Shown: positions 12,632 through 29,894 of the stretch, one piece after another | Position numbering within the stretch: the stretch's first letter is position 1 | Layout: every line of letters starts with the position of its first letter | Source of the DNA: Gammaproteobacteria bacterium | GTDB lineage: Bacteria; Pseudomonadota; Gammaproteobacteria; Pseudomonadales; Pseudohongiellaceae | Length of the DNA: 34,772 nucleotides | Reading direction: 5' to 3' | NCBI GenBank assembly: GCA_030645995.1 | Contig: JAUSMU010000362.1 | Span: 1-34,772 of the forward strand | Made by a program: the position numbers and the translations under genes | The notes under the pieces: generated by a model | Database searches by the model: none | The model's input: the letters and a program-made list of their open reading frames with translations, nothing else | Told to the model about the DNA's origin: nothing

Positions 12632-12710
12632 AGGCGACGCCGGGCCGGTGATGATGCAGTCTGTAAAGGTCCCGAAAGGCCTGGTCGACTACTACGCGTG
12701 ATGATGTGAG

Positions 12711-12919
12711 ACGCGCTGGCGTCAGTTATTTGTCGCCTGCTGTGGCGTTGGTGCCGAGCGCGGTGGGCGGGGCGGCTCATGCGGGACACGCCCGTGAACC
12801 CGTCCATGGGGGGCTCGATCGCGCCATCCATGGCGCTCAACGGTCCCGCATGGGCCGCCCCGCCCACCACGCTCTACCCCTGTGCCGCGTCAGGCGACGA
12901 ATAGCTGACGCCAGCGCGT
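12711..12919 (+). repeat. cruciform intergenic element, copy A (conserved core with long private arms)
   Basis: The conserved 61-bp core is 12785-12845. Around it are two sets of complementary arms. 12757-12786 pairs with 12844-12873 (28 of 30). 12711-12739 pairs with 12891-12919 (27 of 29, both exceptions G-T pairs). The core starts GACACGCCCGTG and ends CTCAACGGTC. It contains small hairpins CAC...GTG, CCCG-TCCA-TGGG and GCGCCA-TCCA-TGGCGC. This is the longest of five copies in the window, and the arm sequence is found in no other copy. It starts ten bases after the restored fliK stop. Confidence 0.85.
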
Positions 12920-13069
12920 CTGCTGGTGGCTGGCTGGAGGGCAGAACCTGCTCTCCGCCCCGCAGTGATGGGTGTTCGCCGCCGCATAGCACAGTCCGGC
13001 CGGAGTCCACGCCTGCCCCACTCGCTGACTCTAACCACTGAGCATCCGCCTGAACAAAACCCCCATCAC

Positions 13070-13085
13070 TGGCACACCCTTTGCT
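13070..13085 (+). promoter_or_regulatory. sigma-54 promoter of the fliL operon
   Basis: TGGCAC (13070-13075), five bases, TTGCT (13081-13085) is a perfect -24/-12 match. The predicted start near 13096 leaves a short leader of about 28 bases before the ATG at 13124. It would drive fliLMNOPQR. Confidence 0.9.
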
Positions 13086-13123
13086 ATATCACCGTCAGGA
13101 ACAGTTTTTTTGACGGTGGAGAT

Positions 13124-13687
13124 ATGGCAGCAAACGATCGAATGAACAATGACGAGGCGCAGACCCCTGCCGCCTTGCCTGGCAAGAAAAGCAAGAAACC
13201 CCTGATTATCGCCGCAGCCGTCCTGGTGCTCGCACTCGGTGGCGCTGGCGCCTGGTTCTTCCTGCTGCAACCGACCCCCGCCGCTGAAACTGCTGAAGGT
13301 GCCGAGGGCGCCGAGGGCGGCGAAACCCATGCCGAAACCGTCGCAGACCACGTCGATGCCGATGCCCCCATCGAATACCTGGCGCTCGAACCCGCCTTCA
13401 TCATCAACTTCCCCTACCAGGGGAAGCAGCGCTTCCTGCAAGCCAGCCTCACGGTGATGTCTCGTGATCCCGAAGGTCTGGCGGCTGTCACCGAACACAT
13501 GCCCGCGATCCGCCACAACCTCATCAACCTGTTCAGTGCCCAAATGCTCTCGGTGGCGGAATCGCCCGCGACCGGCATCGAGCCGCTGCGGCAGATGGTG
13601 ACGCGCGAGATTCAGGACGTGCTCATCCGGGAATACGGCAGCGAAGGTATTGAGGAAGTGTTGTTCACGGCGTTTGTCATGCAATAG
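13124..13687 (+). CDS. fliL: flagellar basal body-associated protein FliL
   Basis: Single-pass inner-membrane protein of 187 residues that surrounds or supports the stator units. A short basic cytoplasmic head (GKKSKKP) precedes one membrane segment (IIAAAVLVLALGGAGAWFFL). A Glu/Ala-rich linker and the periplasmic FliL domain follow (YLALEPAFIINF, RFLQASLTVMSRDP, ending GIEEVLFTAFVMQ). The frame stays open to 12926, but ATG 13124 is chosen because it follows the sigma-54 promoter, has GGTGGAG upstream and gives the usual length. GGTGGAG to ATG spacing is short (2 bases). Confidence 0.93.
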   Translation: MAANDRMNNDEAQTPAALPGKKSKKPLIIAAAVLVLALGGAGAWFFLLQPTPAAETAEGAEGAEGGETHAETVADHVDADAPIEYLALEPAFIINFPYQGKQRFLQASLTVMSRDPEGLAAVTEHMPAIRHNLINLFSAQMLSVAESPATGIEPLRQMVTREIQDVLIREYGSEGIEEVLFTAFVMQ

Positions 13688-13741
13688 CCGCCTGGGCTCT
13701 TCCAAGCTCTTCGAAAAACAAGCAACGAAACGGTGTAGACC

Positions 13742-14740
13742 ATGCAAGACCTGTTATCACAAGACGAGATCGATGCGCTGTTGCACGGCGTGGACGATGG
13801 CAACGTCGAGATGGATGTCGAAGTGGATGCGCTGGGCGTCAAGTCCTACGACCTGACCAGCCAGGACCGCATCGTGCGCGGCCGCATGCCGACGCTGGAG
13901 ATGATCAACGAGCGCTTCGCCCGCTATACCCGCATCAGTCTCTTCAACCTGTTGCGCCGCAGCGCGGACGTCTCCATCGGCGGCGTGCAGATCAGCAAGT
14001 TCGGTGAATACCTGCACACGCTCTATGTGCCCACCAGTCTCAATCTCGTTAAGTTTCGCCCGTTGCGCGGTACTGCGCTGTTCGTGCTGGATGCCAAACT
14101 GGTGTTCAAGCTCGTGGATAACTTCTTCGGCGGCGATGGCCGTCACGCCAAGATTGAGGGCCGCGAATTTACGCCGACAGAATTGCGCGTCGTGCAGATG
14201 GTGCTCAATCAGGCGTTCGTGGATCTCGCCGAGGCCTGGCGCAATGTTTACAAGCTCGAATTCGATCACCTGCGTTCGGAGGTCAACCCCTCCATGGCGA
14301 ACATCGTCAGCCCGAGTGAGGTGGTGGTGATCAGTACGTTCCACATCGAACTCGACGGTGGTGGCGGTGACCTTCACATCACCATGCCTTACGCGATGAT
14401 CGAGCCGATCCGCGAGCTGCTGGATGCCGGCATGCAGAGCGACGTTGACGAACACGACGAACGCTGGGGTCGCGCGTTGCGCGAAGACATCATGGATGCC
14501 AGCGTGGAGTTTGGTTGCAACATTTTTGATAAAGAAATCACGTTGCGCGACGTGGTCGATCTGGAGGCCGGTGACGTGATTCCGGTGGAGATGCCGGATA
14601 CCGTGGTGCTGCGGGCCAATGGCGTCCCCATGTTCCACACACATCTCGGTATCTCGAATGGCAATCTCGCGTTGAAAATTCAAAGCGTATACAGAAACAA
14701 GAATCAGGCTCTGATCAAGGGGAAGCAGCATGGCGGATGA
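13742..14740 (+). CDS. fliM: flagellar motor switch protein FliM
   Basis: C-ring protein of 332 residues that binds phosphorylated CheY and controls the direction of rotation. The extreme N-terminus MQDLLSQDEIDALLHG is the CheY-P binding peptide. The middle domain has the usual segments (FARYTRISLFNLLRRSADV, GTALFVLDAKLVFKLVDNFFGG) and the C-terminal SpoA-like domain binds FliN. It overlaps fliN by 11 bases. No good ribosome-binding site is seen, and the 54-base gap from fliL shows no promoter, so it is probably read from the fliL promoter. Confidence 0.97.
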   Translation: MQDLLSQDEIDALLHGVDDGNVEMDVEVDALGVKSYDLTSQDRIVRGRMPTLEMINERFARYTRISLFNLLRRSADVSIGGVQISKFGEYLHTLYVPTSLNLVKFRPLRGTALFVLDAKLVFKLVDNFFGGDGRHAKIEGREFTPTELRVVQMVLNQAFVDLAEAWRNVYKLEFDHLRSEVNPSMANIVSPSEVVVISTFHIELDGGGGDLHITMPYAMIEPIRELLDAGMQSDVDEHDERWGRALREDIMDASVEFGCNIFDKEITLRDVVDLEAGDVIPVEMPDTVVLRANGVPMFHTHLGISNGNLALKIQSVYRNKNQALIKGKQHGG

Positions 14741-15131
14741 ACGAGTGAATAGCGGCAAGTCGGACCAGGAAATTGCGGACGAATGGGCTGCGGCGATGGC
14801 AGAGGACGAGTCGGCTGCGGGAGCGGGAGAAACTAATGCGCTGACGCAACAACCACGCGCGGCGGCAGCGAGCCCGGACCTGGATGTCATTCTGGATATC
14901 CCAGTACAGATTTCCATGGAGGTGGGCAGTACTTCCATCACCATCCGCAATCTGTTGCAGCTCAACCAGGGCTCGGTGATCGAGCTGGACCGCCTGGCGG
15001 GTGAGCCGTTGAATGTGCTGGTCAACGGCACCTTGATTGCGCACGGCGAGGTCGTAGTGGTGAACGACAAATTCGGCATTCGCATGACTGATGTCATCAG
15101 CCCCTCGGAACGCATCAAAAAACTCCGCTAA
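14730..15131 (+). CDS. fliN: flagellar motor switch protein FliN
   Basis: C-ring protein of 133 residues that forms the lower ring with FliM and docks FliH/FliI. An acidic, variable N-terminus (1-50) precedes a SpoA domain (about 51-133) with DVILDIPVQISMEVG, NLLQLNQGSVIELDRLAGEP and NDKFGIRMTDVISPSERI, all diagnostic. The start overlaps the fliM stop by 11 bases. A REP-like hairpin follows the stop. Confidence 0.97.
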   Translation: MADERVNSGKSDQEIADEWAAAMAEDESAAGAGETNALTQQPRAAAASPDLDVILDIPVQISMEVGSTSITIRNLLQLNQGSVIELDRLAGEPLNVLVNGTLIAHGEVVVVNDKFGIRMTDVISPSERIKKLR

Positions 15132-15138
15132 TCCCAAT

Positions 15139-15161
15139 GTGAGAGCGAGCCCTGCTCGCGA
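15139..15161 (+). repeat. degenerate REP element between fliN and fliO
   Basis: The sequence starts GTGAGAGCGAGC and ends GCTCGCGA, with a 6-bp stem GCGAGC-CCT-GCTCGC. It has the same head and tail as the GTGGGAGCG...CGCGAT REPs elsewhere in the window, with one changed base in the head. It lies seven bases after the fliN stop, inside the operon. Confidence 0.6.
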
Positions 15162-15172
15162 CGGACTCCCTC

Positions 15173-15586
15173 ATGACCTACATCCTGACCACAGCCACCG
15201 CCGCCGCAGCCGCAGGCGAACAAGCCTCCGGCCCACTGGGCTTCGGCGCAGCGCTGGAGATGATGCTGTGGCTCGCAGTGGTCATCGGCGTCATCCTGCT
15301 ATGTGCATGGGGCTTTCGGCGCCTCAACGGCACTGTGCTGACGACGGCCAGTGCGATTCGTGTGCGCAGCGTGATCTCGGTGGGCAACCGTGAACGCATC
15401 GCGTTGCTGGAGGTGGGCGACAAACAGATTCTGGTCGGGCTGTGCCCCGGTCAGATCAGTACGCTGCATGTCTTCGAAGAGAACGTCCTGCCCCCTTTGC
15501 ACGACACCGAGAAAGGTGCTGGTAACTCCGCCGGCGATTTCGCCTCCAGACTGCAGAGTTTCATCAACAGAGATCAGCGCCAGTGA
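15173..15586 (+). CDS. fliO: flagellar export apparatus protein FliO
   Basis: Small membrane protein of 137 residues that helps assemble the FliP pore of the export gate. One membrane segment (about 28-48, [19 protein letters not shown]) is followed by a cytoplasmic domain with the typical [24 protein letters not shown]-type pattern. FliO is poorly conserved, but this segment and the position between fliN and fliP make the call safe. The stop overlaps the fliP start (GTGA). Confidence 0.92.
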
Positions 15587-16461
15587 GAATCTTCCTGAAT
15601 CGCCTTGCCTTGCAGTTTGCGCTCTTGGCTGTACTCTTGATGGCGCTCTTGATGGCACTTCCTGCATATGCGCAGGTCGTCCCCGCAGGTGATGATCCTC
15701 TCAACACCAGCACCAACATCAGCACCACAGCCGCCTTGTCCGGACCGGAGCGTGCGCTGCAGATGCTGGAATCGAGCAGCGGTCTTGGCGTGCCGGCGAT
15801 GACAGTCACCGCGCAGCCCGATGGCTCACTGAATTACACGGTCAGCCTGCAGATTCTGATGCTGATGACTGCGCTGACGCTGCTGCCAGCGCTGCTCATG
15901 ATGATGACCTCCTTCACACGCATCCTGGTGGTATTCGCCATTTTGCGGCAGGCGCTCGGTCTGCAGCAGACGCCCTCGAATCAGATTCTGCTCGGCCTCG
16001 CGCTGTTCCTGTCGCTGTTCATCATGACCCCAGTGCTGGATCAGGTGAATGTGCGTGCGCTGCAACCTTATCTGAGTGAACAATTGACAGCAGGGCAGGC
16101 GCTTGCCGAGGCCGAGTTGCCCATTCGCGAATTCATGATGGCGCAGACGCGCGAATCAGACCTGGCCCTGTTCATGGAGCTGGGTGCTGCGACGCCGGTG
16201 GCGAGCCAGCAGGAGATTCCCTTCACGGTGCTGGTGCCAGCCTTCGTCACCAGCGAATTGAAGACGGCCTTTCAGATCGGCTTCATGCTGTTCATTCCCT
16301 TTCTGGTGATCGACCTGGTAGTGGCGAGCGTGTTGATGGCGATGGGCATGATGATGCTCTCGCCCATCATCATCTCGCTGCCCTTCAAGATAATGCTGTT
16401 TGTGTTGGTAGACGGCTGGGCCATGGTGATCGGCACCTTGGCAGCGAGTTTTGGAACCTGA
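15583..16461 (+). CDS. fliP: flagellar export gate protein FliP
   Basis: Core pore subunit of the flagellar type III export gate, 292 residues. The N-terminal hydrophobic stretch ending LPAYA is a cleavable signal peptide (about 1-30), as is usual for FliP. The family patterns [37 protein letters not shown] and [20 protein letters not shown] are present, with four membrane helices. The GTG start overlaps the fliO stop by four bases. Confidence 0.96.
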
Positions 16462-16465
16462 TGAT

Positions 16466-16735
16466 ATGACTCCCGATACTGTAGTGACGCTGTGGCGCGA
16501 GGCGATGTTTCTGATCGTGGTGATGGTGACGGTGATCGTGATGCCGAGTCTGGTGGTCGGTCTGGTGGTGAGTACCTTCCAGGCGGCGACGCAGATCAAC
16601 GAACAAACCCTGAGTTTTCTGCCACGCCTGCTTACCACGTTGTTCGCCGTAATGCTGGCCGGCCCGTGGTTGCTGCGCAAGGTGATGGAATTTACCGAAC
16701 AACTGATCACCAGCATTCCGTTTCTGGTGGGTTGA
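16466..16735 (+). CDS. fliQ: flagellar export gate protein FliQ
   Basis: Gate subunit of 89 residues, the standard length, with two hydrophobic hairpin helices (MFLIVVMVTVIVMPSLVVGL and LTTLFAVMLAGPWLL) and the conserved STFQAATQINEQTLSFLPR between them. The ATG at 16466 is chosen over an in-frame TTG at 16451 because it gives the family length and avoids overlapping fliP. Four bases separate it from fliP and eleven from fliR. Confidence 0.96.
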   Translation: MTPDTVVTLWREAMFLIVVMVTVIVMPSLVVGLVVSTFQAATQINEQTLSFLPRLLTTLFAVMLAGPWLLRKVMEFTEQLITSIPFLVG

Positions 16736-16746
16736 GGCACGCGCCC

Positions 16747-17523
16747 ATGCAGACGCTGACATTCAGTGCGGAGGAAATGGGCGCACTGCTCGGCAGTTTC
16801 CTGTGGCCGCTGTTCCGTGTGATGGGTTTCTTCATGGCGGCGCCGTTGATCGGCACTCAATTAGTCCCGATGCGCGTGCGCCTGATTCTCGCGGTGGCGG
16901 TCACCGTGCTGATCGCACCGCTGCTGCCCGCTGTGCCGCAGGTCGATGGCCTTTCGGTGCAGATGGTGTTGATTGTCACTCAACAATTGGTGATCGGTCT
17001 GGCGTTGGGTTTTTTCATGCAGTTGCTGTTTCAGGTGTTCGTGCTGGCGGGGCAGCTGATTGCGATGCAGATGGGATTGGGCTTCGCCTCGATGGTGGAT
17101 CCTTCCAACGGTGTGAACGTGGCGATTGTCAGTACCGTGTATCTGATGCTGGTGATGTTGCTGTTCATCGCCTTCGACGGGCATCTGGTGATGCTCGAAG
17201 TATTGGTAGAGAGTTTTGCGGTGCTGCCGGTGGGGACCGCAGGTTTCAGCGGCGAGATTCTGATGCAAATCGTGCGTACGTTGAGCTGGGTGTTTTCGAG
17301 CGCCATTGTGTTGGCGCTGCCAGCGTTGACGGCGCTGCTGATTACGAATTTTGCGTTCGGGATCATGACGCGGGCGGCGCCGCAGATGAATATTTTCGCG
17401 CTGGGATTTCCAATCGCGTTGATGCTGGGGTTGTTCATCATCTGGATGACGATGGGGACATTCCTGGGGTCGGCAGAATCCCTGTTCAACGAATTCTTTT
17501 TGATGATGAGATCGTTGCTGTAA
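16747..17523 (+). CDS. fliR: flagellar export gate protein FliR
   Basis: Export gate subunit of 258 residues that caps the FliP/FliQ pore and contacts FlhB. It has about six hydrophobic segments and the family patterns FFMAAPLIGTQLVP, IAMQMGLGFASMVDPSNG and TRAAPQMNIFALGFPI. The frame is open back to 16492 inside fliQ, but ATG 16747 gives the standard length. It is the last gene before a 540-base gene-free stretch. Confidence 0.96.
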   Translation: MQTLTFSAEEMGALLGSFLWPLFRVMGFFMAAPLIGTQLVPMRVRLILAVAVTVLIAPLLPAVPQVDGLSVQMVLIVTQQLVIGLALGFFMQLLFQVFVLAGQLIAMQMGLGFASMVDPSNGVNVAIVSTVYLMLVMLLFIAFDGHLVMLEVLVESFAVLPVGTAGFSGEILMQIVRTLSWVFSSAIVLALPALTALLITNFAFGIMTRAAPQMNIFALGFPIALMLGLFIIWMTMGTFLGSAESLFNEFFLMMRSLL

Positions 17524-17525
17524 TT

Positions 17526-17565
17526 GTGGGAGCGTACCCAAAGGGCATAAAAGCCCGCTCGCGAT
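17526..17565 (+). repeat. REP element, copy 2 of an identical 40-bp pair
   Basis: Identical over 40 bases to 6688-6727 and likewise located a few bases after a flagellar stop codon (fliR). It is followed by a cruciform element and then a REP in the opposite orientation at 17708-17732. The REP pair thus brackets the cruciform. Confidence 0.8.
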
Positions 17566-17572
17566 GGCATGT

Positions 17573-17700
17573 AGCCCGAGCCGGGTAGTGGGGGTGGCAC
17601 TGCGGGACACGCCCGTGAATACATCCATGTAGGGCTCGATCGCGCCATCCATGGCGCTCAACGGTCCCACAGTGCCACCCCCACCACCCGGCTCTGACAC
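17573..17700 (+). repeat. cruciform intergenic element, copy B
   Basis: The core is 17606-17666 (61 bp), with hairpins CAC...GTG, TACA-TCCA-TGTA and GCGCCA-TCCA-TGGCGC. The flanking arms pair over about 30 bases with about three exceptions; the left arm contains AGTGGGGGTGGCACTG and the right arm CAGTGCCACCCCCACC. The arms are unrelated to those of copies A, C, D and E. It is bracketed by two REPs in opposite orientation. Confidence 0.85.
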
Positions 17701-17707
17701 TGTGCCT

Positions 17708-17732
17708 ATCGCGGGCAGGCCCGCTCCCACAG
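17708..17732 (-). repeat. REP element
   Basis: The sequence begins ATCGCGGGCAGGCCCGC and ends TCCCACAG. It matches the copy at about 400-423 and is a reverse-orientation partner of the REP at 17526. The stem is GCGGGC/GCCCGC. Confidence 0.75.
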
Positions 17733-17899
17733 TTGTAACTCGACACTGTCGGAGCGCGATGGGAATCTCATCATCGGTGGGGTGAGGCATAGCGGTAGCC
17801 CATGGCCGCATTAGACGACTCAGCCGAAGCAACGATGTGTACACAACCATTGAGCTTCTGCCATTTTTAGCACTGTGATTTCCCGACGCGGCATCGCAG

Positions 17900-18018
17900 C
17901 CAGGGCGGGGGGAGAGGGAGGGAAGGGCAGGACCGTCTTGAGCCATGGATGGCGAAAGCGAGCCCCCATGGATGGGTTCACGGCGTGTCCGGCCCATCCC
18001 TCCCTCTCCCCCCGACCG
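17900..18018 (-). repeat. cruciform intergenic element, copy C (reverse orientation)
   Basis: The core is 17931-17989 (59 bp, two bases shorter than the others), read on the minus strand. Hairpin 2 is CCCA-TCCA-TGGG and hairpin 3 keeps the CCATCCATGG centre. The arms 17903-17930 and 17990-18017 pair over nearly all positions through a purine-rich/pyrimidine-rich stretch (GGGGGGAGAGGGAGGGA against TCCCTCCCTCTCCCCCC). It lies in opposite orientation to copy B, 200 bases away, and just upstream of flhB. Confidence 0.8.
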
Positions 18019-18063
18019 ACCTACGAAGCCCAATCAACCAAAAACCCGAGCGAGAGAAAAAAG

Positions 18064-19200
18064 ATGGCAGAAGATAAAGACTCCTCCTCGGAAAAGTCGC
18101 AGGAACCTACGCAGAAACGGCTGGACACCGCCCGCGAAGACGGCAACGTCGCCCGCTCCCGCGAACTCAACACCACCGCCATCCTCATCGGCGGCACCGC
18201 CGCCGTCATCGCCTACGGCGCCAGCATGATCGACGCCTTGCGCGAAATCATGCGCCACAACCTCGTCCTCGAACGCGAATCCCTCTTCGACACCAACGCC
18301 ATGCTTATCCAACTCGGCGACTCCATCTGGAGCGGTTTCGAATCCCTGCTGCCCGTGTTCGCCATATTGCTCCTGTTAGCACTCGTCGCCCCCATGGCGC
18401 TCGGCGGCTTCAACTTCAGCCTCAAGGCCATCTTGCCCAAGGCCAGCCGCTTGAACCCCATGAGTGGCCTCGCGCGTATGTTCGGTGGCAAGGCGCTGGT
18501 GGAGCTGGCGAAGGCGATTGCCAAGGTGCTGGTCGTTGCCGGGCTGGCGGTGCTGGTGCTGTATGCCAACGTTGGCGGTATGCTCGACGTGCAACACCAG
18601 CCCACGCTCTCGGCCATGGCCAACGCGCTCGACATGCTGGCCTGGGCGGTGCTGTGGATATCCTGCGCCATGATTCTGATCAGTCTCGTTGACATCCCGC
18701 TGCAGGTCTACGACCACAATCAAAAGCTGCGCATGACCATGCAGCAGGTCAAGGATGAGATGAAGGACAGCGACGGGCGTCCCGAGGTCAAGCAGCGCAT
18801 CCGCCAGCTGCAGTACCAGATGTCCCAGAACAAGATGCTGGCCGATGTTCCGGAGGCCGACGTCATCATCACCAACCCCGAACACTATGCGGTGGCGCTG
18901 CGCTACGACCAGAGCAAAGAGGGCGCGCCGGTCATGCTGGCGAAGGGGGCCGATCTGGTCGCCCAGAAGATTCGCGAGATCGCGCAGGAGCATCGCATTC
19001 CCATCGTCTCGTCACCGGCCCTGGCGCGCGCGATTTACTTCAATACCAAGATCGGCCAGGAAATCCCCGGCGGGCTCTACGTGGCCGTCGCGCAGGTGCT
19101 TGCCTACCTGCATCAGCTCAAGCAGTACGCCCGTGGCCGCGCCAAGCGTCCCGTTCTCAATCCGCAATTGCCTATCCCCGAAGAGCTGCAGCACGATTAA
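18064..19200 (+). CDS. flhB: flagellar export gate specificity protein FlhB
   Basis: Export-gate membrane protein of 378 residues whose cytoplasmic domain self-cleaves and switches export from hook to filament substrates on a signal from FliK. The N-terminal EKSQEPTQKRLDTAREDG-type segment, four membrane helices (about 38-58, 92-115, 150-172, 190-212) and the cytoplasmic domain are all typical. The cleavage motif is NPEH (271-274) rather than the common NPTH; the Asn-Pro bond itself is present. ATG 18064 is chosen as the start because the N-terminus then aligns with the family, although the frame is open further upstream. The ribosome-binding site is weak. Confidence 0.96.
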   Translation: MAEDKDSSSEKSQEPTQKRLDTAREDGNVARSRELNTTAILIGGTAAVIAYGASMIDALREIMRHNLVLERESLFDTNAMLIQLGDSIWSGFESLLPVFAILLLLALVAPMALGGFNFSLKAILPKASRLNPMSGLARMFGGKALVELAKAIAKVLVVAGLAVLVLYANVGGMLDVQHQPTLSAMANALDMLAWAVLWISCAMILISLVDIPLQVYDHNQKLRMTMQQVKDEMKDSDGRPEVKQRIRQLQYQMSQNKMLADVPEADVIITNPEHYAVALRYDQSKEGAPVMLAKGADLVAQKIREIAQEHRIPIVSSPALARAIYFNTKIGQEIPGGLYVAVAQVLAYLHQLKQYARGRAKRPVLNPQLPIPEELQHD

Positions 19201-19220
19201 TTTGTGAGTCAGTTCAAATC

Positions 19221-19236
19221 AGGCGAGCTTCTTGCA
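19221..19236 (+). promoter_or_regulatory. probable sigma-54 promoter of the flhA operon
   Basis: AGGCGA (19221-19226), five bases, TTGCA (19232-19236) keeps the key GG at -24 and GC at -12 with correct spacing, but deviates elsewhere in the -24 box. The predicted start near 19247 leaves a leader of about 78 bases before flhA. The Pseudomonas flhA promoter is also sigma-54 dependent. Confidence 0.5.
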
Positions 19237-19324
19237 GTGTCCCTCCTGAGCGAGATCGACGCGTCAAGAAATTGAACAGCGGCAAGCAAACCTCCCGAAC
19301 AAATCTCCAGAGCAGACAGCAAAG

Positions 19325-21457
19325 ATGACACCAGGCGCCAGCGCACAACGCAACGATTTCATGACCAACGCCCGCAACCTGACCCGTGGCAACCTGGGGA
19401 TTCCGGTGTTGCTGCTGGTGATGCTGGCAATGATGACGTTGCCGCTGCCGCCGTTCCTGCTCGATGTCTTCTTCACCTTCAACATCACCATCGCGCTCGT
19501 CGTGTTGTGCGTAGCGGTGTACGCGATGCGGCCGCTGGATTTTGCCGTGTTCCCCACCGTGCTGCTGGTGGCGACGTTGTTGCGTCTGGCACTGAACATC
19601 GCCTCCACTCGCGTGGTGCTGCTGGAAGGACACGAGGGCGGCGCGGCGGCGGGACACGTCATCGAGGCATTCGGTGAAGTCGTGATCGGCGGCAACTACA
19701 CTGTGGGCATCATCGTCTTCATCATCCTGATCATCATCAACTTCATGGTGGTGACCAAGGGTGCTGGCCGCATCGCCGAGGTGAGCGCGCGTTTCACGTT
19801 GGACGCGATGCCCGGCAAACAAATGGCGGTGGATGCAGACTTGAACGCCGGTTTGATCGATCAGGATCAGGCCCGTGCGCGGCGCAAGGAGATCACTCAG
19901 GAAGCCGACTTCTACGGTTCGATGGACGGTGCCAGTAAATTTGTGAAGGGTGACGCCATCGCCGGCATCCTCGTCCTCATCATCAACATGGTGGGCGGCG
20001 TGGCAGTGGGCATGCTGCAGCATGACCTGGACTTCGCGATGGCCATGGAGCGCTATGCACTGCTGACGATCGGTGACGGTCTGGTCGCACAGATTCCGGC
20101 GCTGGTGCTGTCGGTGGCCGCCGCGATCATGGTCACGCGCAGCAACAGCTCCGAGATGATGGGGGCGCAGGTAGTGGGACAGATGTTTGCCACGCCGCGT
20201 GCGCTGGGTATCACGGCGGTGATGCTGTTCGTGATGGGCAGTGTGCCCGGAATGCCTCATGTCGCCTTCCTGGGGCTCGCGGGCGTCGCCGGTGCGGGCG
20301 CGTTCCTGATCTACTGGAAACAGCGTCAGCAGGTAGGTGACGCGGCGACGGCGGAGACGGTGCAGCAAAAGGCGCGGGACGACGTGGCCGCGGAACCGCA
20401 GGAGCTTGGCTGGAATGATGTCACGCCGGTGGATGTGATTGGTCTGGAGGTGGGCTATCGCCTGATTCCGATGGTCGACAAATCCCAGGGCGGGCAGCTG
20501 CTCAGCCGCATCAAGGGCATTCGCAAGAAGCTCTCGCAGGAGCTGGGGTTTCTCGTGCCGTCTGTGCATATCCGCGACAACCTCGATCTTTCCCCCAACG
20601 AGTACCGCATCACCTTGATGGGCGTGAATGTCGGCGGCGCGGAGATTTTTCCGGAACGCGAGATGGCCATCAATCCCGGCCAGGTGTTCGGCAAGGCGCA
20701 GGGCATTCCCACCAAGGACCCGGCCTTCGGACTCGACGCGCTGTGGGTCGAAGCCAGCCAGCGCGATCACGCGCAGACTCTCGGTTACACCGTGGTGGAC
20801 AGCAGCACCGTCATCGCCACGCACATGAACACCCTGCTGCAGAAGCACTCCCACGAACTGCTCGGCCACGAGGAAGTCCACGAGATGCTGGCGATCCTCG
20901 GCAAGAGCTCCAAGAAGCTGGCCGAAGACCTGCCTTCCCAGGTCAATACCAATGTATTGCTCAAGGTGCTGCAGAATCTGTTGGTTGAAGGCGTACCCAT
21001 TCGCGACATGCGCACGATCGCCGAGGCGTTGGCGGCAGCAGGCGTGCGCAGTCAAGATCCCGGCGCTTTGACTGCGGCGGTGCGAGTCGCTTTATCGCGC
21101 GTCATCGTGCAAGGCATCTATGGAAGCGCGGCGGAGCTGGCTGTCATGACCCTGGAGCCGACTCTGGAACAGATATTGCTTAAAGCTGTACAACAGTCAT
21201 CACAACAGCAGCAGGCAGTGGAAGACAGCATGGTGATCGAACCGGCAATGGCAGAGCGTCTGCAACGCTCATTACTCAACGGGGCGCAGAATCAGGAGGT
21301 GGCAGGCAGGCCGCCCGTGCTGTTGGTGCCAGCATCACTGCGCGCTCCCCTGAGCCGCTTCGTGCGCTTCACCATCAGCGGACTGCGGGTGCTCTCCTAC
21401 CAGGAGATCCCGGACAACAAGAAGATTACGATTACGGCGACTATCGGGCAGCAATAG
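19325..21457 (+). CDS. flhA: flagellar export gate protein FlhA
   Basis: Large export-gate protein of 710 residues that forms a nonameric ring, couples the proton-motive force to export and docks chaperone-substrate complexes. The N-terminal half has about eight membrane helices. The FHIPEP-family pattern RLALNIASTRVVLLEG starts near residue 87, followed by the cytoplasmic loop SARFTLDAMPGKQMAVDADL. The C-terminal half is the soluble docking domain (SPNEYRITLMGV, DSSTVIATHMNTLL, LSRFVRFTISGLRVLSYQEI). A second Met at residue 13 is an alternative start, and neither has a strong ribosome-binding site. flhF follows after nine bases. Confidence 0.97.
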   Translation: MTPGASAQRNDFMTNARNLTRGNLGIPVLLLVMLAMMTLPLPPFLLDVFFTFNITIALVVLCVAVYAMRPLDFAVFPTVLLVATLLRLALNIASTRVVLLEGHEGGAAAGHVIEAFGEVVIGGNYTVGIIVFIILIIINFMVVTKGAGRIAEVSARFTLDAMPGKQMAVDADLNAGLIDQDQARARRKEITQEADFYGSMDGASKFVKGDAIAGILVLIINMVGGVAVGMLQHDLDFAMAMERYALLTIGDGLVAQIPALVLSVAAAIMVTRSNSSEMMGAQVVGQMFATPRALGITAVMLFVMGSVPGMPHVAFLGLAGVAGAGAFLIYWKQRQQVGDAATAETVQQKARDDVAAEPQELGWNDVTPVDVIGLEVGYRLIPMVDKSQGGQLLSRIKGIRKKLSQELGFLVPSVHIRDNLDLSPNEYRITLMGVNVGGAEIFPEREMAINPGQVFGKAQGIPTKDPAFGLDALWVEASQRDHAQTLGYTVVDSSTVIATHMNTLLQKHSHELLGHEEVHEMLAILGKSSKKLAEDLPSQVNTNVLLKVLQNLLVEGVPIRDMRTIAEALAAAGVRSQDPGALTAAVRVALSRVIVQGIYGSAAELAVMTLEPTLEQILLKAVQQSSQQQQAVEDSMVIEPAMAERLQRSLLNGAQNQEVAGRPPVLLVPASLRAPLSRFVRFTISGLRVLSYQEIPDNKKITITATIGQQ

Positions 21458-21466
21458 GAAAAGACG

Positions 21467-23098
21467 ATGAAAGTGAAACGATTTCTGGCGCAGGATATGC
21501 GTCGCGCGCTGGCCCGTATCCGTGAGGAGATGGGCGCCGATGCTGTGATTCTCTCGAATCGTACCCTGGACGAGGGCGTCGAGGTGGTAGCGGCCTCGTT
21601 GACCGATCAGCCGGAGGCACCCTCCACGATGTCGGCGGCAAAGTCGCCCACCGGCAGGTCTGCATCGGGCAACTCCACCGAAGATTACGCGGCGGCGATT
21701 CAGGCCGCTGTGGACAGGTCCCACCGCGGGCGTGCCTCCGCCGATCTAGCCTCTTCAGAACGAAACTCTTCAGAACGAACGAGAGACGAGCGAGCTGCTG
21801 CAGAAAAAAACTCACCTCAGACCCAGGCTCAACGTCCGTTAACCGATGCCGACGCCAGTCGTTCCACTGCGCCACTCTCCGGCGTCGCCGCCTTCGAGTT
21901 TGGTCGACTGCAGCGCGAAGCCCAGCACAACGCCAGCACCCCCTATCTGAAGACAACCAAAGACCAGCAGATTCGCCTGTCCGACGGCAGGCGTCCGGCA
22001 GCGGATGAAAGCTACCGTGCCGCAGAAGAGCGCGAGGCGCGCGCCACCGCAGCCAGCCAGTTCGACCAGTTCAGCCAGCAGGCAGAGGGCGCCGAGCAGC
22101 GTGAGATGACCGTGATGCGCGCCGAGCTCAACGGCATCCGCCGCCTGCTCGAACAGCGTCTGAGTGGCCTGGCCTGGGATCAGTTCGCGCGGCGCAACCC
22201 TGCCCAGGCCACCGTCTGGGAGCGCCTGAACGCCATGGGAGTTCCCGCCGCTCTGAGCCGTTCGCTGCTGGAGTCCCTCAAGCCTGATCTGTCTGCTGCC
22301 GAAGCCTGGCGGTTTGCAATTGCCTCCCTGTCGCGCCGTGTGCCGGTGCTGGGGACAGATATTGCCGCTCGCGGTGGCGTCTATGCGCTGCTCGGGCCAA
22401 CCGGCGTCGGCAAGACCACCACTATCGGCAAGCTCGCCACCCGCTGCGTGCTGGAGCATGGCTCCGATGCCGTGGCACTGGTCACCACCGACAGCTACCG
22501 TGTCGCCGCTCATGAGCAGTTGCGCACTTTCGGACGCATCCTGGATGTCAGCGTGCGGGTGGTTGACGAGACCCACAGCCTGCGGCAGATTCTCGATTCG
22601 CTGCAGCACAAGCGACTGGTGCTGATCGACACTGCCGGCCTGCATCCGAAAGACCCCGGCCTGCAGTCCCAGTTGCAGATGCTGCGCGAGTGTCGCGAGG
22701 TGCGTAAACTGCTGGTGCTGGCCTGCACCAGTCAGGCAGGCGTGCTGGCCAATGCCTGCAAGACCTACGCTCCGGCGGAGCTCAGTGGCTGCATCCTCAG
22801 CAAGCTCGACGAGGCAGGTACTATCGGAGAAGCGCTGGCGCTGACCATCGATCTCAAGCTGCCCGTCGTCTATGAAACCCACGGGCAGGGCATTCCTGAC
22901 GACATGCGCGTGGCGCAGGCTCATAATCTGGTCAGCAAGGCGGTGGCACTGTCGGTGCACAGTGCCGACGAGAAGGAGCGGCTGATTTATGAATTCGGAG
23001 GCGCCGTGGCGGACGCGACCGGTATCACCGAGGGCGGCGCGCTGGCGGCGGAAAATTTTGACGGTAGTCTGCGGGCTGCCCAGAGGAGTGGCCGATGA
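21467..23098 (+). CDS. flhF: SRP-like GTPase FlhF, polar flagellum placement
   Basis: SRP-type GTPase of 543 residues that places the flagellum at the cell pole and starts MS-ring assembly there. The N-terminal motif MKVKRFLAQDMRRAL is typical, followed by a long variable basic/acidic region (about 50-230). The NG domain has G1 GPTGVGKTT (310-318), TTDSYRVAAHEQLRTFG, DTAGLHPKD and SKLDEAGTIGEAL. It is longer than many FlhF proteins because of the middle region. The stop overlaps fleN (ATGA), matching their antagonistic roles in number and site. Confidence 0.96.
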   Translation: MKVKRFLAQDMRRALARIREEMGADAVILSNRTLDEGVEVVAASLTDQPEAPSTMSAAKSPTGRSASGNSTEDYAAAIQAAVDRSHRGRASADLASSERNSSERTRDERAAAEKNSPQTQAQRPLTDADASRSTAPLSGVAAFEFGRLQREAQHNASTPYLKTTKDQQIRLSDGRRPAADESYRAAEEREARATAASQFDQFSQQAEGAEQREMTVMRAELNGIRRLLEQRLSGLAWDQFARRNPAQATVWERLNAMGVPAALSRSLLESLKPDLSAAEAWRFAIASLSRRVPVLGTDIAARGGVYALLGPTGVGKTTTIGKLATRCVLEHGSDAVALVTTDSYRVAAHEQLRTFGRILDVSVRVVDETHSLRQILDSLQHKRLVLIDTAGLHPKDPGLQSQLQMLRECREVRKLLVLACTSQAGVLANACKTYAPAELSGCILSKLDEAGTIGEALALTIDLKLPVVYETHGQGIPDDMRVAQAHNLVSKAVALSVHSADEKERLIYEFGGAVADATGITEGGALAAENFDGSLRAAQRSGR

Positions 23099-23934
23099 AG
23101 CCAATACAGGTACTGGCAGTCACCGGTGGCAAGGGTGGGGTCGGCAAGACCAACGTCTCTGTGAACCTGAGTCTGGCACTGGCTGCGGCCGGCAAGCGGG
23201 TGATTCTGATGGATGCGGACCTCGGGCTGGCGAACGTCGACATTCAGCTCGGGCTGAAGGCAGACAAGACGCTGGCGCAGGTGCTCAATGGCGAGTGCAT
23301 GTTGCGCGACATTCTGTTGACGGCACCGGGCGGGGTGAAGGTGATTCCCGCCGCCTCTGGCGTACAGTCTCTGACGCAGCTGGGGCCGCGCGCCCACGCC
23401 GGATTGATTCAAGCCTTCAGCGATCTCGATGACCAGCTCGACGTGCTGGTCATCGACACGGCAGCGGGCATCTCCGAGAGCGTGGTCAGCTTCGTGCGTG
23501 CAGCGCAGGAGGTCATGGTGGTGGTGTGTGACGAGCCGTCCTCCATCACCGATTCCTATGCGCTGGTGAAGCTGCTCAATCGTGACTATGGGTTGACGCA
23601 TTTCCGCGTGCTCGCCAACATGACGCGCAGCCCGGAAGAGGGTCGGAATCTGTTTCAGAAGTTTGTGAAGGTGGCCGAGCGCTTCCTGGATGTCACGTTG
23701 CAGTACGCTGGTGACATTCCCTGGGATGAATCGGTGCGCAAATCGGCACAGCGCCAACGGGCGGCGATCGAGGCTTATCCTGCCAGCAAGTGCGCTATTG
23801 CCTACCGACAACTGGCCGAGCATGTCTGCCAGTGGCCAGTAAGTCGGCAGGCGAGTGGGCGTTTGGAGTTTTTTGTTGAGCGGCTTCTGCAGAGCGAAGC
23901 GGCGCATCTTGAAACGGTACCTAATGCGGGTTGA
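23095..23934 (+). CDS. fleN: flagellar number regulator FleN (FlhG), MinD-like ATPase
   Basis: ParA/MinD-family ATPase of 279 residues that limits flagellar number. In Pseudomonas it inhibits FleQ, and it antagonises FlhF at the pole. Visible are the deviant Walker A GKGGVGKT (12-19), MDADLGLANVDIQLG and VIDTAAGISESVVSF, with a C-terminal segment (RLEFFVERLLQSE) resembling the membrane-targeting helix region. It overlaps flhF by four bases, and fliA starts six bases after its stop. The symbol flhG is equally used for this family. Confidence 0.95.
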   Translation: MKPIQVLAVTGGKGGVGKTNVSVNLSLALAAAGKRVILMDADLGLANVDIQLGLKADKTLAQVLNGECMLRDILLTAPGGVKVIPAASGVQSLTQLGPRAHAGLIQAFSDLDDQLDVLVIDTAAGISESVVSFVRAAQEVMVVVCDEPSSITDSYALVKLLNRDYGLTHFRVLANMTRSPEEGRNLFQKFVKVAERFLDVTLQYAGDIPWDESVRKSAQRQRAAIEAYPASKCAIAYRQLAEHVCQWPVSRQASGRLEFFVERLLQSEAAHLETVPNAG

Positions 23935-23940
23935 AAAAAT

Positions 23941-24675
23941 ATGATGACAGCAGCGAGTGGTGCTTCCATGTACAGCGAAGTACAAACCGACAGCATGAAT
24001 GACATCGTGATTCGTTATGCGCCTCTGGTGAAGCGCATTGCTCATCATCTGTTGTTGAGAATGCCTGCCAGCGTGCAGATCGACGACTTGGTGCAGTCCG
24101 GCATGATCGGCCTGCTGGAGGCGGCGAGAAAGTACGATCTATCCAAAGGGGCCAGCTTCGAGACCTATGCAGGCATCCGCATTCGTGGCGCGATGCTGGA
24201 CGAGATCCGCAAGGGCGACTGGGCACCGCGTTCCGTGCACCGCAAGTCGCGTCAAGTAGCGGAAGCAATCAAGACCATCGAGATGCGCACCGGCACCGAC
24301 GCGAAGGATCACGATGTCGCAGCCGAACTGGGGATGGAACTCGACGAATATCACCTGATTTTGCAGGATGCCTCGGGGAGCCGGTTGTTCAGCTTCGACG
24401 ACATGCTGGAGGGAGATGACTCGGCCATCGAGAAGGTGGCGGGAGAAATGCCGAATCCTTTGGACGGTATTCAGAGCGAGGCGTTCCGGTCGGAGCTGGC
24501 GGCAGCGATTGCGGGCTTGCCGGAGCGGGAGAAGCTGGTGTTGTCGCTTTACTACGACGAAGAGCTGAATCTGAAGGAGATTGGGCAGGTGATCGGGGTG
24601 AGTGAGTCGCGGGTGAGTCAGATTCACACCCAGGCAGCTCTGAGGTTGAGGGCGCGGTTGGCTGAGTGGGGGTGA
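23941..24675 (+). CDS. fliA: flagellar sigma factor FliA (sigma-28)
   Basis: Alternative sigma factor of 244 residues that transcribes flagellin, chemotaxis and motor genes after hook completion, held off by FlgM until then. Region 2 is RYAPLVKRIAHHLL to FETYAGIRIRGAMLDEIRKGDW. Region 3 includes GTDAKDHDVAAELGM. Region 4 is LPEREKLVLSLYYDEELNLKEIG with helix-turn-helix VSESRVSQIHTQA. Starts at 23941 or 23944 are equivalent. It ends the flhA-flhF-fleN-fliA unit. A sigma-28 promoter stands before the next gene, cheY. Confidence 0.97.
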   Translation: MMTAASGASMYSEVQTDSMNDIVIRYAPLVKRIAHHLLLRMPASVQIDDLVQSGMIGLLEAARKYDLSKGASFETYAGIRIRGAMLDEIRKGDWAPRSVHRKSRQVAEAIKTIEMRTGTDAKDHDVAAELGMELDEYHLILQDASGSRLFSFDDMLEGDDSAIEKVAGEMPNPLDGIQSEAFRSELAAAIAGLPEREKLVLSLYYDEELNLKEIGQVIGVSESRVSQIHTQAALRLRARLAEWG

Positions 24676-24690
24676 TTCGGTTTGTGGTTA

Positions 24691-24806
24691 TGCAGGGGGT
24701 GGGAGGGGGCCCGTGGTGACACGCCCGTGAATACATCCCTGTAGGGCTCGGTCGCGCCATCCATGGCGCTCAACGGTCACCACTGGCCCCCTCCCACCCC
24801 CTGCCC
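24691..24806 (+). repeat. cruciform intergenic element, copy D
   Basis: The core is 24718-24778 (61 bp), with hairpins CAC...GTG, TACA-TCCC-TGTA and GCGCCA-TCCA-TGGCGC. The arms pair 28 of 30; the left arm contains GGGGGTGGGAGGGGGC and the right arm GCCCCCTCCCACCCCC. It starts 15 bases after the fliA stop, so it may act as a terminator or mRNA end stabiliser for the flhA operon. Confidence 0.85.
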
Positions 24807-25000
24807 AGCGCATTGGTGGTCCCGTCCTCCACTCAAGGGGGGTAGGCATAGGCAGTGGGGCGCGCTGCCTTGGTGGATGTTCTGCGGGTTGGTAGTTGTT
24901 CTTCTCTTCTGATTTTTCCGGCGCGTTCGGCGTCAATTTTCCAGCTAATCTCCTGCCTCCACGCGCCGATCTATCAGCGTGTGTATTTGCCTTTTCCGGA

Positions 25001-25149
25001 CGGCGGCACACTCGTCAGGCATGGTGGGCAGCGTGGGGGGTGGTGACCGTTGAGCGCCATGGATGGCGCGACCGAGCCCTACAGAGAAGTATTCACGGGC
25101 GTGTCACCACCCCCCACGCTGCCCACCATGCTTGCCGCTGGTGTGCCTC
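25001..25149 (-). repeat. cruciform intergenic element, copy E (reverse orientation)
   Basis: The core is 25045-25105 (61 bp) on the minus strand. The inner arm ATGGTGGGCAGCGTGGGG pairs perfectly with CCCCACGCTGCCCACCAT, about 29 bases without a mismatch. Looser pairing continues outward to about 45 bases. Hairpin 2 here is TAC-TTCTCT-GTA, the only copy lacking the TCC loop there. It faces copy D in opposite orientation. Confidence 0.85.
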
Positions 25150-25211: not shown

Positions 25212-25290
25212 CCACAACAGGATAAATCGCGTTGTGCCCGAACCTGATGATTTCATACCCGATTTCTCACAGGGCAATGTGGAGGCAGAT

Positions 25291-25683
25291 TTGAACAAGA
25301 ACATGAAAATCCTCATCGTTGACGACTTTTCAACGATGCGGCGAATTATCAAAAACCTGCTCAGAGACCTGGGCTTTACCAATACCTCGGAAGCCGACGA
25401 CGGCCACAGCGCCTTGCCGATGCTTCAGCACGGGGACTTCGATTTCCTTGTCACCGACTGGAATATGCCCGGTATGACCGGCATCGACCTGCTGAGGGCC
25501 TGTCGCGCCGACGAGCGCCTCAAGAGCCTGCCGGTGTTGATGGTGACCGCCGAGGCCAAGCGCGATCAGATCATTGCAGCCGCGCAGGCGGGCGTGAATG
25601 GCTACGTCGTCAAGCCTTTCACTGCAGCGGCATTGCAGGAAAAGATCGAGAAAATATTCGAACGTATCGACGCCCACAGCTAA
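25291..25683 (+). CDS. cheY: chemotaxis response regulator CheY
   Basis: Single-domain receiver that, when phosphorylated by CheA, binds FliM and changes flagellar rotation. Family sequence is clear: [20 protein letters not shown] with the acidic pair, [14 protein letters not shown] with the phosphoacceptor Asp, [11 protein letters not shown] with the conserved Thr, and YVVKPFTAA with Lys. TTG 25291 is chosen because GGAGG stands five bases before it and it gives [12 protein letters not shown], a common CheY N-terminus (130 residues). ATG 25303 (126 residues) and GTG 25234 are alternatives. cheZ follows after 16 bases. Confidence 0.94.
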
Positions 25684-29855: not shown

Positions 29856-29894
29856 ACTTCCCAGTTGAACTTCCCAGTTGAACTTCCCGGTTGA
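29843..29894 (+). repeat. four tandem 13-bp units between cheB and parC
   Basis: Units at 29843-29855, 29856-29868, 29869-29881 and 29882-29894 read ACTTCCCRGTTGA, the first beginning with G. Two have A and two have G at the variable site. The first unit contains the cheB stop, so changes in copy number would leave CheB intact and alter only the distance to the next gene. Confidence 0.9.

Follow-up and report, generated by a model that had tools for sequence, protein, structure and literature searches.

Dispersed hairpin elements, probably related to TwoAYGGAY RNA, in a flagellar region of a Pseudohongiellaceae bacterium

The elements of the flagellar region

The DNA analysed here (the window) comprises 34,772 nucleotides of contig JAUSMU010000362.1 (assembly GCA_030645995.1), from a gammaproteobacterium of the Pseudohongiellaceae, and is a flagellar and chemotaxis region. 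Pfam matches identify FliK (10724-12631), FliL (12926-13687), FliR (16492-17523), FlhB (to 19200), FliA (23941-24675), and CheY (25234-25683). The gaps between these genes hold five copies of an element with a conserved head and two complementary arms, provided that FlhB starts at 18064, where its alignment to relatives begins; an alternative longer open frame from 17875 would take in the third copy. Two divergent pairs, 17606/17931 and 24718/25045, account for four of the five copies. The elements belong to a dispersed, high-copy family that lies between genes in many bacteria of sea and soil, and the somewhat favoured reading is that of TwoAYGGAY-like RNA elements with a stem selected for length and pairing and a head that may bind CsrA/RsmA. 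The RNA strand, as the term is used below, is the strand opposite to the core described in an earlier sequence-only reading of the same DNA. The source genome is labelled G000 (3.8 Mb searched) and its near relative G013; other G, L, and C labels denote compared genomes, loci, and contigs.

Core copies: The sequence-only reading had placed core copies at 12785, 17606, 17931, 24718, and 25045, and all five are found there. A covariance model of the head with 8 nt of stem on each side (R1, built on 60 sequences) matches at 12777-12853 (-), 17598-17674 (-), 17923-17997 (+), 24710-24786 (-), and 25037-25113 (+). Each core is centred in a long inverted repeat, as had been claimed, with arms of 79 nt (84% complementary), 31 nt (94%), 44 nt (82%), 29 nt (97%), and 35 nt (94%) in positional order. 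Arm lengths of about 28 to 70 bases per side had been given; the long palindromes are real (29-79 nt), but the typical arm is fixed at 24-28 bp. The copy at 12785, palindromic to 79 bp, is exceptional and has the highest extension score among 113 copies (61, the next being 50).

Stem length: The whole element measures about 150 nt, of which the head takes up about 58-63 nt, and its stem is 24-28 bp long. Watson-Crick pairing is 0.61-0.92 across 28 positions outward from the head in the own genus (84 non-redundant copies), 0.75-1.00 across 24 positions in Stenotrophomonas (20 copies), and 0.63-0.98 across 27 positions in other gammaproteobacteria (49 copies), these sets having been reduced from 109, 39, and 53 copies. 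The length is fixed, at 27-28 bp here and at 24 bp in Stenotrophomonas, and beyond it pairing drops abruptly to 0.1-0.5. Arms matched with the arms of other copies pair mostly at 0.25-0.6, apart from a few near-constant arm positions in Stenotrophomonas with a cross-copy pairing of up to 0.95. Folded alone, a single copy gives z = -8.8 and -8.4 for its two strands against 200 dinucleotide shuffles.

Private arms: The description of a constant core with private complementary arms, as opposed to an ordinary repeat, holds. At least 15 of 22 arm positions are Watson-Crick paired, in arms that do not exactly repeat another arm, in 98 of 113 copies from several genomes. After 15 of the 113 copies were dropped from the arm comparison, identity between copies is 39-40% for arms, 34-36% for shuffled arms, and 83-92% for heads of equal length. 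The claim of no similarity between copies goes slightly too far, because the arms share a G-rich 5′ side and a C-rich 3′ side, and the few Stenotrophomonas positions are near constant. Arms copied from other G000 DNA were considered and rejected; in the DNA examined, an arm 15-mer occurs elsewhere for only two elements, both times at the pair mate. Among 35 G000 copies, the only pair with shared arms besides that of C217 (below) is formed by the copies on C33 and C461, whose arms are identical, and the next best match is 78% in one arm and 56% in the other.

Stem foot: Motifs are enriched at and outside the foot of the stem, with a likelihood of 215-325 compared with 102-121 in letter-shuffled flanks, redundant copies being included in the search. 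On the RNA strand of the own genus they are 5′ gtgGCACaGa, about 44 nt from the head, and 3′ GcTCGacCtACggA, from about 24 nt; a site scoring above 8 bits is present in 54 of 109 and in 57 of 107 copies. Pooled other genera have different foot motifs, with such sites in 33 of 92 and 33 of 91 copies. Because the stem has a fixed length with an abrupt end, and because motifs lie at its foot and outside it, the arms are internal to the element.

The head and the strand that folds

Head structure: The structure drawn on 60 sequences has 89.6% of its cells paired, with a covariation of 0.573 compared with 0.131 for shuffled and at most 0.116 for slid alignments. The head hairpin stems differ between lineages with pairing preserved, and the loops and junctions are near constant. 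Heads of 125-128 nt also occur, at G000:C353:4331-4455, C347:15757-15884, C214:10647-10773 and 11501-11627, C373:544-670, and G013:C49:41402-41528 (L312). In the two long heads read, L312 and the fliR-flhB element of G007, another ATCCAT/ATGGAT-type hairpin lies within an insert of about 51 nt in hairpin B. A recurrent hybrid in Stenotrophomonas, found at L047, L054, L062, L075, L091, L094, L101, and L152, joins half an element to another repeat (CAGCCGCTGGCGGCTG ... TTCGCAAGC).

Kinship: The element is probably related to the TwoAYGGAY family (RF01731), although formal membership is not reached. In a loose Rfam scan, RF01731 matches the RNA strand with a best score of 41.9 bits against a cut-off of 43, and both loops and the junction letters are aligned. 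Over the whole genome, 11 matches are found at E<=1, every one of which coincides with an R1 element and shares its strand, and 14 control genomes have none at this threshold; RF01731 is the sole Rfam family searched genome-wide, and the long stem contributes to its score. The two hairpins have AYGGAY-type loops as in TwoAYGGAY, and the Y positions are not always pyrimidine.

Folding strand: Stem mismatches read on the RNA strand are mainly G-U. Of 153 non-redundant copies, the 134 in which 13 or more of 22 positions pair have 138 G-U and 20 A-C mismatches, 74 copies being richer in G-U and 9 in A-C. The unfiltered 153 copies have 184 and 60, with 83 copies having more G-U and 16 more A-C. In the 134 copies the excess occurs in both orientations (5′G-3′U 64 vs 5′A-3′C 6; 5′U-3′G 74 vs 5′C-3′A 14) and thus is not merely an effect of a conserved G-rich arm. 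Changes in the flanks have a milder strand bias (C/T 192 vs A/G 131), the G-U excess being larger, and G-A outnumbers C-U in the same direction (85:38, 5:4, and 50:14). A G-U pair on one strand is A-C on the other, and therefore the excess marks single-strand folding of the RNA strand, for which RNA would be the simplest reading.

Copy number, placement and arm rewriting

Copy number: R1 finds 45 copies in G000 and 50 in G013; up to 150 candidates were scored per genome, so that counts have a ceiling near 150. An exact 25-mer of the core occurs 15 times in G000. Copies in 14 further relatives range from 0 (none found in G014, G017, and G024) through 1 each in G015 and G016 to 78 in G020, which belongs to another genus. 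An exact-pattern scan of genomic contigs returned at least 117 stretches, of which 97 have the head and 20 lack it. Carriers among the matches listed include Stenotrophomonas, Marinobacter, Halieaceae, Microbulbifer, Oceanimonas, Oceanisphaera, Pseudomonas, Halopseudomonas, Pseudoxanthomonas, and Thioalkalivibrio. In 14 named carrier genomes, picked because a copy was already seen in each, R1 counts are 5 to 143; they include Stenotrophomonas maltophilia D457 (107) and SJTL3 (126), Microbulbifer sp. HZ11 (113), Oceanisphaera arctica (143), Oceanimonas smirnovii (74), Marinobacter nauticus (46), and Pseudoxanthomonas jiangsuensis (5).

Records and assemblies: Several draft contigs (G005:C17, C21, and C31; G020:C5 and C26; G010:C341; G013:C57) start inside an element or less than about 50 nt from one, and one folds back on itself. 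Draft assemblies probably undercount the elements. L129, from a record titled Bacillus subtilis SK7B5, has a Stenotrophomonas-type element and is probably mislabelled or contaminated. A phage origin was rejected, as seven viral-contig stretches fit the head model only across the search pattern or a comparably short segment, covering no more than 34 of about 60 positions and scoring 14.2 bits or less.

DNA hairpin: The high and patchy copy number (45 in G000, none in G014, G017, and G024) also suits a DNA element, a mobile repetitive extragenic palindrome (REP) or IS200-like hairpin, of which one strand would be extruded as single-stranded DNA in the course of replication and recognised by a transposase or other enzyme. 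The inverted dimers are REP-like, and a CGTAG-like tag lies at one foot. G-T, G-A, and G-G are the stabler mismatches in DNA. Single-stranded DNA of the RNA-sense strand would therefore yield a strand-specific mismatch bias as well, which weighs against the RNA reading. However, genes for Y1 transposases do not track the elements, since the 78 copies of G020 are accompanied by no PF01797 match, the four matches of G014 by no copy, and none of 30 PF01797 loci (98 kb) contains a head. Mobilisation by a REP-associated tyrosine transposase (RAYT) of the Y1 type was accordingly rejected, PF01797 genes following the elements neither in number nor in position. REPs are given as 20-40 bp in PMC3733652, in contrast to an element of about 150 nt, and a DNA hairpin leaves the likeness to an RNA family unexplained, so that this alternative is rather improbable. 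A REP-like palindrome (GCGGGTCAGACCCACGTAA and a close relative) flanks the only PF01797 gene found in G000 (L181, about 1048-1066 and 1976-1996), and also lies within the spacers of two element pairs (L014/L294).

Divergent pairs: Neighbours less than 1 kb apart by their starts have RNA strands pointing apart in 15 of 15 cases in G000, 16 of 16 in G013, and 59 of 63 in other loci, a few of which are G013 or G010 again. The spacers in G000 and G013 measure 60-819 nt. A stretch common to another spacer occurs in 8 of 15 G000 and 3 of 16 G013 spacers, mostly of 25-64 nt and once of 271; in the S. maltophilia group 22 of 23 spacers share stretches, which may include the same locus in different strains.

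Gene ends: A crude open reading frame call on 31 G000 elements with 500-nt flanks on both sides puts 22 between frames and 9 inside one, and overstates the latter, as four of the nine are window copies lying in gaps between named genes. By the same crude calls, in 12 of the 22 intergenic cases a neighbouring gene points towards the element and ends 12-77 nt short of its outer side. This position, together with strong GC-rich hairpins, would suit bidirectional intrinsic transcription terminators. No U-tract accompanies the hairpins, TTTTT within 40-90 nt downstream being present in only 5 of 80, 0 of 17, and 0 of 46 copies, and a conserved head of 60 nt is unnecessary for termination. Terminators are thus a most improbable explanation. 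Neither an intrinsic terminator nor an own promoter is supported, the U-tract and a promoter enrichment being missing; TATAAT-like sequences (at least 5 of 6 letters) occur upstream and downstream in 9 vs 16 of 80, 2 vs 2 of 17, and 7 vs 7 of 46 copies.

Sites in relatives: The fliR-flhB gap holds the pair in G000, G013, G007, and G012, whereas G003, G001, G016, and G023 lack it and have 18-36 nt between the protein matches; in G005 this gap is 114 nt. The G005 gap and the G013 C477 site look like deletion scars. Among the genomes read, only G005 has a pair between flhB and flhA. The fliA-cheY pair is present in G000, G013, and G005 and absent from G016 and G023, and no cheY match occurs in the examined stretches of the other four genomes. 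At G013:C45:29878-29951 (L324), the left half of one element is fused to the right half of its mate with the spacer lost; G000 has an intact pair there, G005 a single element, and G007 and G012 none. An apparent inversion of the fliR-flhB spacer between G000 and G013 was dropped, because the G013 contig opens with its own flank in reverse complement, the pattern expected of an assembly fold-back.

Selfish RNA: The presence of pairs at differing sites in related species (fliR-flhB in the four genomes named, flhB-flhA in G005) favours a selfish RNA element, in which the head would be the docking site of a mobilising ribonucleoprotein or reverse transcriptase and not of CsrA. Two G000 places share a left element with its spacer at 90.6% identity over 372 nt and have different right elements, which points the same way, as do invariant junction letters beyond the loops. 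No partner gene was identified, and the loops fit CsrA/Rsm sites. A target-site duplication is not definable, no close relative with a clean empty site having been found. This alternative has a likelihood well below even.

Empty sites: Seven pair-less sequences from three gaps (G000, G001, G003, G012, G013, G016, and G023) fold no better than shuffles, with z from -0.84 to 1.57; they come mostly from distant genomes and are not a direct view of the ancestral site. The sequence-only reading had offered two routes, insertion of the core into the loops of existing palindromes and a core that turns flanking DNA palindromic by hairpin-primed template switching. Both are contradicted, because they predict arms of arbitrary length made of local DNA, whereas the arms are internal. 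Insertion into loops fails on the fixed stem length, the outer motifs, and the gaps that do not fold. The strand-specific G-U excess shows selection on single-strand folding, and neither route predicts it.

Arm rewriting: G000 and G013 proteins in this region are 96-100% identical. Of 31 candidate syntenic elements 19 were accepted, 11 being rejected for weak flanks and one as a fold-back, and two G000 copies (L298 and L299) share one G013 partner. Twelve of the 19 have no both-sided change with pairing kept (0-7 arm changes in total), and in the other seven 4-15 positions are changed on both sides with pairing kept. Both-sided changes total 61 positions, of which 53 keep pairing, compared with about 15 expected if the pooled changes were independent. 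Divergence is 17.1% in arms and 2.7% in heads where lengths agree. The clearest case is the copy at 24718, which has flanks 97% and 92% identical, one head change, and 10 changes per arm, with eight positions changed on both sides and pairing kept; the adjoining copy 5 has two arm changes and one head change.

Source of the new arms: The head is also changed at L005, L197, and L189, which suits replacement by another element, and it differs by one letter at L192 and 24718, which suits copying from arm to arm. In the C217 pair of G000 the two elements share arms (96% and 93%) and the left one differs in G013, which suggests homogenisation within the pair. No donor for the rewritten 24718 arms was found among 390 loci, which cover 35 of 45 G000 and 33 of 50 G013 copies with full flanks, so that a donor may lie among the remaining copies. 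Concerted rewriting of both arms, by conversion between elements or arm-templated copying, seems to occur on existing elements. The joint changes at 7 of 19 sites and the extra palindrome of copy 1 to 79 bp are what template switching has in its favour. Against it stand the fixed stem length, the motifs outside the stem, the strand-specific G-U excess, and the pair-less gaps that do not fold. Template switching is thus very improbable as the maker of palindromic flanks and is contradicted as the origin of all arms, but it could rewrite existing ones.

Table 1. Positions of the element parts and associated features in the window; the strand is that of the RNA.
Feature	Position	Strand
Copy 1, head (core)	12785..12845	-
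Copy 1, private stem arm, 27 nt	12758..12784	none
Copy 1, complementary arm, 27 nt	12846..12872	none
Copy 1, exceptional extended palindrome, two 79-nt arms, 84% complementary	12709..12921	none
Copy 2, head	17606..17666	-
Copy 2, stem arm	17579..17605	none
Copy 2, complementary arm	17667..17693	none
Spacer of divergent pair, fliR/flhB interval	17694..17903	none
Copy 3, head, 59-nt subtype	17931..17989	+
Copy 3, stem arm	17904..17930	none
Copy 3, complementary arm	17990..18016	none
Outer motif CCTACGAAGC, 3′ foot of copy 3	18020..18029	+
Copy 4, head	24718..24778	-
Copy 4, stem arm, rewritten relative to G013, pairing mostly kept	24691..24717	none
Copy 4, complementary arm, rewritten relative to G013, pairing mostly kept	24779..24805	none
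Spacer of divergent pair, fliA/cheY interval	24806..25017	none
Copy 5, head, one loop AGA instead of GGA	25045..25105	+
Copy 5, stem arm, identical in G013	25018..25044	none
Copy 5, complementary arm, two changes relative to G013	25106..25132	none

Elsewhere in the window, a near-perfect palindrome with 29-nt arms (GTAAATTTGGGGTCAGAGTAAAAATACAG) lies at 319-377, and a 13-bp tandem repeat (GAACTTCCCAGTT) at 29828-29892 spans the end of an open frame.

Possible function and known systems

CsrA fit: The Rsm-binding motif is given as 5′-CANGGANG-3′ (PMC6849547), the consensus for CsrA from in vitro selection (SELEX) is close to CANGGANG (PMC7652899), and CsrA motifs within TwoAYGGAY have been noted earlier (PMC4333381). 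The element has CANGGANG, an ANGGAN-type hexaloop, in both hairpin loops in 137 of 143 non-redundant copies, a count that is partly circular, copies having been found through head patterns, and that loses some of its force as support for CsrA on this account. The two GGA are spaced 22-26 nt apart in 135 of the 137. The element thus combines CANGGANG in a hairpin loop with two nearby sites, as CsrA/Rsm targets do, and the head may bind CsrA/RsmA.

Proposed mechanism: Each copy of about 150 nt would work as a folded RNA from the strand opposite to the core of the sequence-only reading. A long stem of fixed length is capped by a conserved branched head, whose two small hairpins each close an ANGGAN hexaloop. 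Selection on the stem would act mainly on length and pairing and leave its sequence largely free, so that stems diverge, and at times both arms would be overwritten together, with another element or the opposite arm as the source. In the head, selection would act on each letter, and its most likely role is to bind a protein. The two hexaloops would suit CsrA/RsmA, making the elements CsrA-binding sites in read-through transcripts, or decoys. As no promoter-like or terminator-like signature is present, transcription would be mainly by read-through. Dispersal between genes mostly as divergent pairs would give a transcript from either side one element in the functional sense, any read-through transcript of a symmetrical pair having one element in the RNA sense.

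Points against: Several observations weigh against this reading. The unfiltered G-U:A-C ratio is 3:1 and not 7:1. The RF01731 cut-off of 43 bits is reached neither in the window, nor by the 11 own-genome matches, nor in 18 element loci (144 kb, all except L060 from genomes other than G000 and G013), and another 18 loci give no RF01731 match at E<=1e-4. The loose scan matched microRNA-precursor families on the long stem as well, some at lower E-values; MIR9776, for example, scored 46.1 bits (cut-off 100). One element was matched by Ysr224 at 40.2 bits, where the cut-off is 70. Since such models match too, the long stem adds to weak scores. The 3:1 ratio and the matches of other stem-rich models slightly lower the confidence placed in a TwoAYGGAY-like RNA. 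The head has invariant letters outside its loops (GACCGT, part of CGAG, and parts of GCGTGTC), which exceed what CsrA alone should need, and one loop of window copy 5 has AGA where GGA is expected. Independent transcription is unsupported because the upstream promoter-like enrichment and the U-tract are both lacking. A basal stem past the foot is weakly supported, a helix of at least 5 bp being formed in 43% of own-genus, 65% of Stenotrophomonas, and 28% of other copies, compared with 27, 36, and 26% for swapped partners. For L174, one of the seven rewritten elements, the inner flank is weak and a paralogue is possible.

Significance: What appear to be relatives of TwoAYGGAY occur at tens to more than 100 copies per genome in Stenotrophomonas, Marinobacter, Microbulbifer, Oceanisphaera, Parahaliea, and other genera, and were missed for falling below the Rfam cut-off. 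If the head binds CsrA, insertions would spread CsrA sites among operons, here inside a flagellar operon, and would suggest a way, open to testing, in which dispersed RNA elements could alter the wiring of a global regulator. Where sites are otherwise nearly identical, the paired rewriting of stems makes a clean system in which to measure how two complementary strands change in concert. A bolder and distinctly speculative proposal is that of a mobile RNA class for which the divergent pair is the unit of both travel and action, with a CsrA-binding head that is retained and a stem renewed by joint arm rewriting, so that a genome would hold tens to hundreds of CsrA sites with stems unable to cross-pair or recombine.

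Known kinds: The repeat is described in no paper found in searches of the open-access literature. TwoAYGGAY-like RNA is an already known kind, as are dispersed hairpin repeats such as MRSC-65-2 (PMC11109978). As far as the literature was seen, what is new is the private stem of fixed length, the arrangement in divergent pairs, the copy number, and the rewriting of both arms together.

TwoAYGGAY: RF01731 is classed as cis-regulatory by Rfam (PMC2864571). The element resembles it in having two hairpins with AYGGAY-type loops in the same order, AG ahead of the second hairpin, CGG and CGU at the 3′ junction, and a long outer stem (the model has 168 positions). It differs from the portions of the TwoAYGGAY accounts consulted in its sub-cut-off scores, a private stem of fixed length, up to 143 copies per genome, and divergent pairs.

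CsrB/RsmZ-type RNAs: The ANGGAN-type loops in short hairpins are shared with the CsrA decoy small RNAs (PMC6849547, PMC7652899). In contrast to these, the element has only two sites, a long stem, scattered copies, and no promoter or terminator signature.

REP elements: GTAG REPs and bacterial interspersed mosaic elements (BIMEs) with RAYT, as described in PMC3733652, are likewise extragenic and of high copy number, with inverted dimers, a CGTAG-like foot tag, and G-T stem pairs. The present element differs in its length of about 150 nt, its complex conserved head, a stem whose sequence is private in nearly all copies, and PF01797 genes that do not track it.

MRSC-65-2: This motif has a long covarying stem, as the present element does, and often dozens of copies per genome, and it is thought to be selfish. 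Unlike the present element, it is described in PMC11109978 as a single stem with a conserved UYCCGG repeat.

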